From Bacteroidota bacterium (GTDB taxonomy: Bacteria; Bacteroidota; Bacteroidia; Chitinophagales; Chitinophagaceae), in the NCBI GenBank assembly GCA_025356235.1, contig JANXUL010000242.1, forward strand, positions 1 through 32,223: 32,223 nt of DNA. The letters run 5' to 3'. The translations under genes and the position numbers were made by a program. Below the pieces are notes generated by a model that searched no databases, was not told the DNA's origin, and saw only the letters and a list, made by a program, of their open reading frames with translations. This document shows positions 1,372 to 31,970 of this stretch, piece by piece. Positions within the stretch are counted from its first letter, which is position 1; each line of letters begins with the position of its first letter.

Positions 1372-1436
1372 ATCTCAATTGATAAATTGGTTAGAAAAAA
1401 ATAAACTAAAGAGAATGGTTGGGCGGGCTATAGTAC

Positions 1437-1482
1437 TGCTATGATGCTTTGGTTGTGTCACTCACTTCAGCTTCCTGTTCGC
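1437..1482 (-). repeat. Dispersed intergenic motif, copy 1 (core gaagtgagtgacacaac, 1452-1468 minus strand)
   Basis: 17-nt core identical to copies at 20507-20523 (+) and 30897-30913 (-); flanking GAAC-N8 and aaagcatcatag also shared with copy 2. Confidence 0.9.
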
Positions 1483-1661
1483 TGTTGTGCTGTGTAAAGA
1501 AATTATGTGTAATCGTAACCAGCATCGGTGCCTTCAAAATATATTGATAAGCGTATAACAGTTCATGTGCTTTCGTTGGTTTTCTTCATATAGCAAACCA
1601 ATTCCACACGTGCCACTCCAAAAATCCCCCTCACAGCCAACTGCCATTACCCGGCAAAGGC

Positions 1662-2861
1662 TTAACTGACCAAAATTAAGGTTTTGTTCTGAATGATGTG
1701 GTAGAGTTTAATGGTAAGTGCCTGGAACAGCATTTTGGCGTTGGCATTGCGTTCTACGTAGTAAGCGGCCCTGTCAAGTTCTTCAATAATGGCCTGTTGC
1801 TGGCTTACAGAGGCAATTTTATTAAGCCGTTGGGCAAAATCTTTCTCATTATCCCCCAGCATCACCTGTTCAGCTCCCAGCACTTTTATCCGTATGCTTT
1901 GTTCCAGCAGGTGGTTAAAATAGCGTAAAAATTGCTTTTGTTTCTCACGTCCCAGCTTACTGGTTTCTTCTACAAATTTTACCTGTGCAATAGGGCCACC
2001 TTTCAAAGTGGCATTCAGCCAGTCTCTCAAAAGGCTTTGCCAGTCTTCATCGGCATGTTGCAATAATTGCAACGCTTCACGGTAATTACCCTCACAAATA
2101 CCGGCTATCTGCCGGGCAGTATCTGGCGGCACATTAGCACGGGCGGTCAATGCCTGTTCTATTTCACTGTTCTCTAATTGCGGGATTTTTACCAATTGGC
2201 AACGGCTTAAAATGGTAGGCAGAATCTGCTCATCATTTTCTGCCACGAGAATAAATAAGGTATTGGGTGGTGGTTCTTCAATCAGTTTTAATAATTTATT
2301 GCCTTCCTTGCCCAGGTATTCGGGCATCCATAAAAGCAATACTTTGTATTCGCTCTCAAAACTTTTCAGGCTTAATTGGCGGATAATATCGTTGCACTCA
2401 TCTGCCGTAATATTGCCCTGTTTATTTTCTGCACCAATAAACTGCAACCAGTCGTAAACATTCCCATAAGGATAAGATTGAACAAACTCCCGCCATTCAG
2501 CAATATAATCGGTGCTGGTAGGTTTATCGCCCGGTTTTTTCGGAATAACCGGGTATGAAAAATGCAGATCAGGATGTATCAGCTGCCCTGCCCTTTGAAA
2601 AGCAGACTGCGAAGCAATATCGTCCGGATGGATATAGGAAGGGGTAGGTTCTAAAGAAGTCATCCCGCCAAACAAATCCTCCACAACTGGAGAAGGCTGC
2701 GGAAGTGAAACAATGTACTGCGCAAAAGCCATCGCCAATGGTAAAGCCCCACTGCCTTCTTTACCCAGAAAAAGCAAAGCATGGCTAAGGCGGTTTTGTT
2801 CTACCATTTCTGCTAAATGTTGCTTGGTTGCCTGCTGGCCTATCACATCCTTAAATAACAT
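1662..2861 (-). CDS. holB: DNA polymerase III delta' subunit
   Basis: MLFKDVIGQQATKQHLAEMVEQNRLSHALLFLGKEGSG..., later LLKLIEEPPPNTLFILVAEN and LPTILSRCQ; clamp-loader AAA+ motifs; adjacent to ricT as in many bacteria. Confidence 0.94.
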   Translation of the reverse strand: MLFKDVIGQQATKQHLAEMVEQNRLSHALLFLGKEGSGALPLAMAFAQYIVSLPQPSPVVEDLFGGMTSLEPTPSYIHPDDIASQSAFQRAGQLIHPDLHFSYPVIPKKPGDKPTSTDYIAEWREFVQSYPYGNVYDWLQFIGAENKQGNITADECNDIIRQLSLKSFESEYKVLLLWMPEYLGKEGNKLLKLIEEPPPNTLFILVAENDEQILPTILSRCQLVKIPQLENSEIEQALTARANVPPDTARQIAGICEGNYREALQLLQHADEDWQSLLRDWLNATLKGGPIAQVKFVEETSKLGREKQKQFLRYFNHLLEQSIRIKVLGAEQVMLGDNEKDFAQRLNKIASVSQQQAIIEELDRAAYYVERNANAKMLFQALTIKLYHIIQNKTLILVS

Positions 2862-20481: not shown

Positions 20482-20494
20482 CCTGCTGAATAGT

Positions 20495-20535
20495 GAACAA
20501 GGTGCCGAAGTGAGTGACACAACAAAGCATCATAG
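20495..20535 (+). repeat. Dispersed intergenic motif, copy 2 (core 20507-20523)
   Basis: gaac-aaggtgcc-gaagtgagtgacacaac-aaagcatcatag. Confidence 0.9.
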
Positions 20536-20568
20536 TAGCCATATCGTTTGTTAAAAACAAAACACATC

Positions 20569-21945
20569 ATGAAAGATACCGCAGCATCCTTCATTGCCAA
20601 AAGCACCATTAAAGCCGCCGACCTGGAACACAGGCGGAAGATCAATTTTAATATTAATAAATATAATGCAGTAGTGCCTCTGGGTAAGAGCCAGTTTTCG
20701 GATGTGATGCTGGCCCGTGAAAAAGCAAAGAATAAAAAATGGGATGCCATTGAGCACCTAGACAGGTACCTGGAAGAATTTGAAAAAAAGATTACTGCCC
20801 GCGGCGCCAAAGTAATCTGGGCCGAGAATGCGCAGGAAGCTTTGGATGAGATAGGAAAAATATGCAAAGAGAAAAACTGCAAAACACTCGTGAAAAGTAA
20901 GAGTATGGTGACAGAAGAAATTCACCTGAACTCTTATCTTGAATCAATAGGTGTTGAAAGCGTGGAAACCGATCTGGGTGAATATATTCAGCAATTAGAT
21001 GGCGAAGCACCTTATCACATTGTTACACCGGCCATGCACAAAAGCAAAGAAGATGTAGCAAGGTTGTTTGCAGAAAAATTAGGTACGCCTTCCGGCTTGT
21101 CACCCGAAGAGTTAACATTAGTTGCGCGTAAAATCTTACGGGATAAATATGTACAGGCAGAAGTGGGTGTTACCGGTGCCAATTTTATTGTTGCCGATGT
21201 TGGTGGAATAGCTGTTACAGAAAATGAAGGGAATGCGAGGTTAAGTTGCGCCTGGCCTAAAACACATATTGTAGTAGTAGGCATTGAGAAGGTGATACCT
21301 TCCATACAGGATCTCTCTTTATTCTGGCCATTATTAGCCACCTATGGTACAGGGCAAAAAATAACTGTGTACAATACAATTGTTTCCGGTCCGAAACAGG
21401 CGAATGAAGCAGATGGCCCGGAAGAAATGTATGTAATATTATTAGACAACGGGCGCACTAACCTGTTGGCTAACCCTACTGCAAGGGAAGCTTTATACTG
21501 CATTCGTTGTGGTGCTTGTTTAAATGCCTGCCCTGTTTATAAGAATATTGGCGGCCATGCTTATGAAACTACCTATAGCGGGCCAATCGGCTCTGTGATC
21601 ACACCATATATGAGTGGCATAGATGAATACAAGCACCTGAGTTATGCATCTTCTTTGTGTGGAAACTGTACCGAGGTTTGTCCGGTTAGAATTAATCTCC
21701 ATGAATTGTTATTGGATAACCGGCACGAAGCAGTGCTGCAGGGCTCTAGCACATTAGCCGAACGTATTGCCTGGAAAGTGTGGAAAACTGCCAGCCTGAA
21801 CCGGGCAATGATGAATATGGGCAGTGGAAAAATGAAGAACTGGGTGGTGAATAAAGTTTTTAAAGGCTGGACAGCGCATAGGAGCGACCTGGATTTTAGC
21901 CAGAAAACTTTTAATGAACTGTGGAAAGAACGGGATGCCAATTGA
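20569..21945 (+). CDS. lutB: LutB/LldF family L-lactate oxidation iron-sulfur protein
   Basis: MKDTAASFIAKSTIKAADLEHRRKINFNINKYN...YCIRCGACLNACPVYKNIGGHAYETTYSGPIGSVITPY...CGNCTEVCPVRINLHELLLDNR; ATG 20569 preferred. Confidence 0.95.
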   Translation: MKDTAASFIAKSTIKAADLEHRRKINFNINKYNAVVPLGKSQFSDVMLAREKAKNKKWDAIEHLDRYLEEFEKKITARGAKVIWAENAQEALDEIGKICKEKNCKTLVKSKSMVTEEIHLNSYLESIGVESVETDLGEYIQQLDGEAPYHIVTPAMHKSKEDVARLFAEKLGTPSGLSPEELTLVARKILRDKYVQAEVGVTGANFIVADVGGIAVTENEGNARLSCAWPKTHIVVVGIEKVIPSIQDLSLFWPLLATYGTGQKITVYNTIVSGPKQANEADGPEEMYVILLDNGRTNLLANPTAREALYCIRCGACLNACPVYKNIGGHAYETTYSGPIGSVITPYMSGIDEYKHLSYASSLCGNCTEVCPVRINLHELLLDNRHEAVLQGSSTLAERIAWKVWKTASLNRAMMNMGSGKMKNWVVNKVFKGWTAHRSDLDFSQKTFNELWKERDAN

Positions 21946-30229: not shown

Positions 30230-30811
30230 TCAATTATGTAATAGCTCATCCCGCAGAATGCTTAGCCGTTCCCTCAAATGAAGTACTGCATAGCGCTTAC
30301 GGCTGAGTAAAGTATTAATGGTTTCGCCTGTTTGTTCGGCGATGGTTTTAAATGGTATACCCTCTATCTCGTTTAAAATAAATGCTTCCCGTTGTGCTGC
30401 CGGCAACTCGGTTAATGCGCTATTGAGTGCTTCCCAAAAAAGTGAACGGAGGTATTCGGTTTCAGGGTTGTTCGATTCATCAAAAAACATTTCTGTCCAG
30501 TCAAAATTCGATTCCCCGTCTGCATCGGTGTACACATCTTCCAGCAGGTTGGGTTTGTGTTTGCGCTGGCGGTCAGTAATTTTATTGCGGGTAACGGTAA
30601 ACAACCAGGCAGTCAGCTGTTCAATAGGTTTGGTATTGCCAATAAACTGGTAGAATACATCCTGCAGAATATCTTCCGCATCAGCCTCATTGTTCACCCG
30701 TTTGCGTATAAAACCCATCAGCCTTTTGCTATACGTATTGATGACCTCGGTAATATTGTTCTTACGGGTGGTTTCAGCCATGTTAGTTGGTATCGTGAGC
30801 ACCTTATCCAT
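30230..30811 (-). CDS. RNA polymerase ECF-type sigma-70 factor
   Basis: YSKRLMGFIRKRVNNEADAEDILQDVFYQFI (region 2), LTELPAAQREAFILNEIEGIPFKTIAEQTGETINTLLSRKRYAVLHLRERL (region 4). Alternative start ATG 30781. Confidence 0.93.
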   Translation of the reverse strand: MDKVLTIPTNMAETTRKNNITEVINTYSKRLMGFIRKRVNNEADAEDILQDVFYQFIGNTKPIEQLTAWLFTVTRNKITDRQRKHKPNLLEDVYTDADGESNFDWTEMFFDESNNPETEYLRSLFWEALNSALTELPAAQREAFILNEIEGIPFKTIAEQTGETINTLLSRKRYAVLHLRERLSILRDELLHN

Positions 30812-30896
30812 TATAAAGGGTAGACGGGTAAGGGGAAAGAATATTTTAAAGTAGGTATTTTTTTCGGACGAACGGGAGAATGTCTATTGAACACCG

Positions 30897-30920
30897 GTTG
30901 TGTCACTCACTTCACCGTTC
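30897..30920 (-). repeat. Dispersed intergenic motif, copy 3 (core 30897-30913)
   Basis: Minus strand gaac-ggt-gaagtgagtgacacaac; same 17-nt core as copies 1 and 2. Confidence 0.88.
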
Positions 30921-31021
30921 GGCGCAAGGCCCGGCAAATAGCTTTGAAAAGGGAATAACAGGCAATCATATTTTCACATATTAAGTTACCGTAAGTACAA
31001 AAATTCCTTATAATAACGGCC

Positions 31022-31049: not shown

Positions 31050-31970
31050 ATGGAATTTGGCCGTGTACCCGAGTCGGAATTGAACAATATCAACTTTACT
31101 TTACCTGCAGAGCCTGCTAATAATAAGCAGGTGTTGCCGGGTAAGAAGGCGACTAATCCAAAAATATATCTTGGTTGTGCCAAATGGGGGAGAACGGAAT
31201 GGGTTGGTAAAATATATCCCCCCAAAACAAAGGAAAAAGATTTTCTCGACCATTATGTAAAGCATTACAATAGCATTGAACTGAACGCCACCCATTACAA
31301 AGTATATGGCGCGGCAGGTGTAGCTAAATGGGCAGCTAAGGCGGGAGACAAGGATTTTATGTTTTGCCCGAAAATGTACCAGGGCGTTACCCATCGCGGG
31401 AGTTTATTAAACAAAGAATTTATCACTACCGAATTCCTGCGTGGTATTGTAGCTTTTGAAAAACATTTAGGGCCAACTTTTGTACAGGTTAGTGATGCCT
31501 TTACTGCTAAACGGAAAGAAGAGTTGTTTACATTCCTTCGTTCATTGCCAACCGATATGCAGTTCTTTTTAGAAGTACGCCACCCCGATTGGTTTGGCAA
31601 GGAAGACATAAAGGCTGAATTATTTGATTTCCTCCGGTCTATCAATATGGGTATTGTTATTACGGATACCAGTGGGAGAAGGGATTGCGCGCATATGCAT
31701 GTGACAGTGCCTAAAACATTTATAAGATATGTAGGTAACAGTTTACATCCTACAGATTATACAAGAGTGGATGACTGGATCAACCGGATGAAATATTGGT
31801 TAGACAACGGAATAGAAGAAATATATTTTTTCATGCACATGCATGATGAAGCCTTTTCTCCGGAACTGACGGTGTATATGGTAGATAAAATGAATGTCGC
31901 CTGCGGATTAAATTTGATTAAACCGAAATTTATTGATCCGTCTCAAACGGATCTGTTTGGTGGCAAATAA
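31050..31970 (+). CDS. DUF72 domain-containing protein
   Basis: PKIYLGCAKWGRTEWVGKIYPPKTKEKDFLDHYVKHYNSIELNATHYKVY...FFLEVRHPDWF...; DUF72 TIM-barrel motifs. Confidence 0.93.
   Translation: MEFGRVPESELNNINFTLPAEPANNKQVLPGKKATNPKIYLGCAKWGRTEWVGKIYPPKTKEKDFLDHYVKHYNSIELNATHYKVYGAAGVAKWAAKAGDKDFMFCPKMYQGVTHRGSLLNKEFITTEFLRGIVAFEKHLGPTFVQVSDAFTAKRKEELFTFLRSLPTDMQFFLEVRHPDWFGKEDIKAELFDFLRSINMGIVITDTSGRRDCAHMHVTVPKTFIRYVGNSLHPTDYTRVDDWINRMKYWLDNGIEEIYFFMHMHDEAFSPELTVYMVDKMNVACGLNLIKPKFIDPSQTDLFGGK

Follow-up and report, generated by a model that had tools for sequence, protein, structure and literature searches.

A 17-nt motif upstream of ricT, lutB and an ECF sigma gene is very probably the conserved core of an interspersed repeat of Chitinophagaceae

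REP elements are defined as palindromic stem-loops of 20-40 bp with an unpaired GTAG/GGAG or CGTC tag at one end, those of the CGTC type requiring stems of 8-9 bp that start with AT (PMC3733652; PMC3116915). REPs and their BIME and REPIN arrangements occur in hundreds to thousands of intergenic copies, are over-represented near the 3' ends of genes and where neighbouring genes run in tandem or converge, and form inverted dimers and almost no direct ones (PMC3733652; PMC3116915). The repeat described here shares all of these properties of number, place and pairing, while it has neither the stem-loop nor the tag.

The window, as we call the whole stretch of 32,223 nt analysed here, contains three exact matches to the 17-mer GAAGTGAGTGACACAAC and no fourth copy with up to 3 mismatches; dinucleotide shuffles of the window gave a mean of 0.02 matches and never reached three. 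The cores and the longer units that surround them are the following.

1416..1491, minus strand: copy 1 of the ~80-nt repeat (model R1 46.3 bits, E 9.9e-12; nhmmer with the other-genera profile E 6.5e-8)
1452..1468, minus strand: 17-nt core of copy 1, GAAGTGAGTGACACAAC, exact match
20482..20568, plus strand: stretch of 87 nt from the DUF3109 stop to the lutB ATG, with the inserted copy 2 (junction ~65-90 nt shorter in eight relatives)
20484..20562, plus strand: copy 2 of the repeat, model match (R1 41.7 bits, E 2.9e-10; nhmmer E 4.4e-8)
20507..20523, plus strand: 17-nt core of copy 2, exact match
30856..30937, minus strand: copy 3 of the repeat (R1 39.1 bits, E 1.8e-9; nhmmer E 3.1e-8)
30897..30913, minus strand: 17-nt core of copy 3, exact match

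Copy 1 lies between a DNA-pol-III-delta-like gene (1662-2861, minus strand) and ricT/PSP1 (start about 1374, minus strand), copy 2 between a DUF3109 gene and a LUD-domain/4Fe-4S LutB-like gene (ATG at 20569, plus strand), and copy 3 in the divergent gap between an ECF sigma gene (start 30811, minus strand) and a DUF72 gene (31050-31970, plus strand), with neighbour identities assigned by Pfam. A first-pass annotation of the window had reported three identical cores far above chance in non-coding gaps, sense to the next gene, and in these particulars it was accurate: all three are outside called genes and point in the direction of the next one, the distances to the ricT, lutB and ECF sigma starts are 78, 45 and 85 nt, in line with its figures, and GAAC-N8 does precede the core in copies 1 and 2.

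When the copies were aligned, conservation extended far past the core, with GAAC upstream and GATGC/GTTGATA and GCCGG blocks downstream; judged by sequence, the 17-mer is the best-conserved part of a non-coding repeat of ~80 nt. A gapped pattern from the end of the core to GCCGG retrieved 30 copies in G113, a genome from another genus of Chitinophagaceae, and the contexts of the G113 copies revealed a sister core, GTACAAGWGTGCGACGCAAC. Exact copies of the sister-core 12-mer GTGCGACGCAAC numbered 10 in the window genome, 241 in G113 and 147 in G072 (reversed control, 0). A profile built from G113 and G072 copies only had 179 matches in their 800 kb and none in reversed DNA, and each of the three window copies aligned to the greater part of it (E 3e-8 to 7e-8). 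Within G072, separate copies align across one common stretch of ~79 nt, and the approximate consensus reads GCTGAATAG-N8-GAAC-GTACAAG-(WGTGCGACGC or TGAGTGACAC)-AAC-N-GATGC-N15-GCCGG-TACATAAAA. The motif of the window thus represents one subtype within a larger family.

The core is a near-perfect dyad of 7-9 nt with a one-base centre, GCG-A-CGC or GTG-A-CAC, and 242 copies have C/G at the two positions flanking the centre, 84 have T/A and 3 are mixed, a split that is largely a difference between two subfamilies. Across genera, conservation of the core far exceeds that of the remainder of the unit, a point against a dispersed repeat in so far as plain neutral decay would not produce it; recent spread or recognition by an enzyme would give such a pattern. 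RNAalifold predicted no pairs on 56 copies, consensus RNA folding of 56-61 copies yielded no conserved fold, and the Rfam covariance models had no match in the window at gathering score, with chance-level matches only at the loci under relaxed thresholds.

In the whole window genome (3.55 Mb, 317 contigs) GAAGTGAGTGACACAAC had 15 matches at up to 2 mismatches (reversed control, 0), and the complete unit was found in at least 29 copies by model R1, which was built on sequence only and with which part of the candidates was scored. The same model, with up to 30 candidates scored per genome, recovered the family in 98 of 150 sampled Chitinophagaceae genomes and 73 of 103 genera. Public records carrying the 20-nt sister core belonged, among the matches listed, to Chitinophagaceae (Segetibacter, Foetidibacter and Lacibacter included) or to less finely named Bacteroidota bins, and plasmid and phage collections had no match to the repeat. 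Copies were counted at 92 per 200 kb in G278, 72 per 200 kb in G195, 140 per 400 kb in G113 and 32 per 400 kb in G072, which extrapolates from the sampled stretches to ~2,500, ~1,900, ~1,900 and ~400 per genome, respectively. By a rough estimate, which takes ~85 nt for each of 118 intergenic copies in 50 kb, the repeat fills about one fifth of the intergenic DNA of G113, and a pattern search detected almost no copies in the same-genus relatives of the window. G278 also holds several copies of another repeat set, of ~120-140 nt (L335:2313-3446).

From 13 kb onward the window is syntenic with eight same-genus genomes. In all eight, DUF3109 and lutB either overlap or lie a few to some tens of nt apart, as compared to 87 nt in the window genome, and the piece missing there (~65-90 nt) is the unit. 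Read from these alignments, copy 2 is a lineage-specific insertion of ~80 nt between two adjoining genes, and its empty sites are the strongest evidence for an inserted element over an ancestral leader. At the copy 1 site, G011, G017 and G006 have a short gap without the unit, while G010 has alignable sequence with a broken core (score 39; 1 shuffle in 500 scored as high) that is probably homologous to copy 1; with such a damaged homologue in G010, copy 1 seems older. At the copy 3 site G010 shares the ECF-adjacent sequence up to ATATTTTAAA...GTAGG and diverges at the unit start, for which a rearrangement is a possible alternative cause. The ATATTTTAAA... block between the ECF sigma gene and copy 3 (30811-30860), whose conservation extends to G010 and, in part, to G120, is possibly the ECF gene's own promoter region. 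Comparisons between G278 and G195 gave no empty site, synteny being too short, that of G072 with its congener G241 gave no match, and public 8-kb contigs had no useful orthologous overlaps.

In four sampled genomes the copies are intergenic and on both strands. Counted against long open reading frames rather than curated annotation, 90 copies in tandem gaps were sense and 110 antisense, with no net sense bias, while convergent gaps held 66 copies and divergent gaps 51. The unit's outer end fell within -6 to +10 nt of a gene end at 77 of 176 3' ends as against 11 of 141 5' ends. This tandem and convergent 3'-end placement is clear in G113 and G278 and weaker in G195, and is absent from G072 and the window genome, which have 0 and 1 convergent copies, respectively. 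Among neighbouring copies no more than 250 bp apart, 55 pairs are inverted outward ('-+'), 2 inward ('+-') and none on the same strand. Adjacent copies alternate in orientation over longer distances too, with direct pairs depleted below ~2 kb and as frequent as opposite ones by 2-4 kb (L104-L143, L366-L385); the shortage could be explained if DNA between direct repeats is deleted, or if the unit spreads in pairs. In the G072 pairs at L139 and L141 other palindromic repeats, of the GCGCCTGACGGCGC and GGCTCCTGCGGAGCC types, occupy the spacer between the inverted copies.

The copies thus constitute one family with a defined unit, intergenic on both strands, often in outward inverted pairs and often with the outer end at stop codons. 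We consider it very probable that the motif marks the most strongly conserved block in a dispersed ~80-nt repeat of Chitinophagaceae that spread through intergenic DNA by insertion. A non-coding, non-autonomous element of the REP/MITE kind would account for this, moving as single units of ~80 nt, its dyad core G-Y-G-A-C-R-C recognised by a putative enzyme supplied in trans; effects on neighbouring genes, such as operon spacing or effects at RNA 3' ends, would be secondary. As no RAYT link, consensus hairpin, fit to the published REP classes, enclosed transposase or target duplication was seen, this mechanism of movement is one that we infer; examination of RAYT linkage and of enclosed transposases identified no mobilising enzyme.

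Two narrower versions of this explanation name the enzyme. According to the first, the repeat would be a true REP/REPIN family, and its mobiliser a RAYT, a tyrosine transposase of the HUH type, carried by Chitinophagaceae genomes. Copy number, intergenic sites, 3'-end preference and inverted dimers match REP descriptions (PMC3733652), RAYTs are common in Chitinophagaceae (117 of 150 genomes), the window genome carries a broken one, and subclass 2.6 TnpA-REP genes of Bacteroidetes are reportedly flanked by atypical structures with copies elsewhere (PMC6006769). We nevertheless regard it as unlikely, because RAYT genes are not flanked by the repeat: among 19 RAYT loci from Chitinophagaceae genomes, most of them copy-rich, a set that may not cover every RAYT subclass, 4 had a copy within 150 bp, as compared to 29 of 146 other genes, with no enrichment. 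Moreover, the copy-rich genomes G164, G189, G198, G208 and G209 have no RAYT match, and the unit is ~80 nt instead of 20-40 and carries no GTAG/GGAG- or CGTC-tagged hairpin of 8-9 bp. The RAYT gene of the window genome (NF047646; G000:C162:9955-10419, L102:1243-1833, minus strand) is interrupted by a stop codon or frame break. G113 has an intact IS200/IS605-type TnpA (L101:1396-1857, minus strand) with outward-facing copies on both sides, ~300 and ~800 nt away, which may be due to chance at this copy density.

The second version, which we hold to be distinctly less probable, sees a MITE, that is, a DDE insertion sequence reduced to its ends by deletion, with the inverted pair as its terminal inverted repeats. 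The outward-facing pairs do have a variable interior, which speaks for it, but copy 2 was inserted alone as a single unit and most copies are single in G113, G072, G278 and G195. The long '-+' pairs, searched for autonomous copies with a transposase inside, enclose ordinary housekeeping genes only. Target-site duplications at a constant offset were not seen either: outside 54 pairs no k-mer was shared in this way, though such duplications may be too short or decayed.

The first-pass annotation had left the choice between an intergenic selfish repeat and a regulatory leader, and had named strand and position bias as the means of deciding. The leader reading takes the 17-mer for a cis-regulatory leader or operator, either a riboswitch-like RNA or a transcription-factor site, of a regulon including ricT, lutB and the ECF sigma gene. 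The near-perfect dyad resembles the site of a dimeric protein, and each of the three window copies is sense to the downstream gene, as are 18 of the 23 copies that could be classified in the window genome (binomial p 0.011), a share that differs from that of the other genomes (Fisher p 0.002, in a small sample and a post hoc comparison). An early impression that all copies were sense leaders, drawn from strict copies and the window alone, was dropped. With 18 sense copies to 5, a lineage-specific preference for 5' positions, or retention there, is possible in the window genome; a lineage in which few copies are left may have kept, or made use of, those at 5' positions. As a general account, however, a regulon is highly improbable: net sense bias is lacking in four other genomes, where many copies sit in convergent gaps or next to the 3' ends of genes; the distance to the start codon varies (about 32-85 nt); the downstream genes are unrelated to one another; the unit is not conserved with its gene, copy 2 being absent from the eight relatives that keep the DUF3109-lutB pair adjoining and the ricT gap having no unit in G011, G017 and G006 and a broken core in G010; and neither a known RNA family nor a conserved fold was recovered. 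Of the two readings, the regulon is therefore not supported, while strand and position counts, together with the insertion of copy 2, support the dispersed repeat.

The literature we searched contained no paper with the core sequence in this sense and none on such a repeat in Chitinophagaceae, although a paper or supplement beyond that search may name it. A REP/MITE-like repeat is known in kind, and for the size, the absence of a hairpin, the missing RAYT link and the family-wide spread we found no description there. A more far-reaching proposal, which we put forward tentatively and consider doubtful as a whole, is that of an unnamed class of interspersed repeats, present family-wide and reaching ~2,000 copies per genome in some members, with a strict dyad core, alternating orientation and docking of the outer end at stop codons, which spreads without a RAYT by an undescribed enzyme and has been co-opted as a 5' leader in some lineages, for instance that of the window. 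In a single genome, repeats of this sort can readily pass for regulons, as happened with this motif, and annotators of Chitinophagaceae genomes could mask this one. What moves a family-wide repeat that fills a sizeable intergenic share with no transposase to be recognised is a testable question, and its insertions form a set in which the tolerance of bacteria for repeats at gene ends can be followed.

Among known systems, REPs resemble the repeat further in that CGTC/TGTC occurs within the present core on the other strand, and differ in unit length, tagged stem, consensus fold and RAYT link, as set out above. The atypical repeats of TnpA-REP subclass 2.6 reportedly share with it the phylum, the lack of a GT[AG]G tag and the copies elsewhere in the genome (PMC6006769), whereas the present repeat is unlinked to RAYT in the 19 loci, the two being compared by description and not by sequence. 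Bacterial MITEs such as that of Porphyromonas gingivalis are likewise short, non-coding and mobile, sometimes with inverted ends (PMC4596501), while here single units insert alone and neither a target-site duplication nor a parental transposase was found. Integron attC sites and the classical CGTC REP were dropped on sequence grounds. DNA uptake sequences (Neisseria DUS, Haemophilus USS) also have a short core, very many copies and frequent inverted pairs after genes; they are common inside genes as well, whereas the present repeat is almost exclusively intergenic and its core lies within ~80 nt of flanking conservation.
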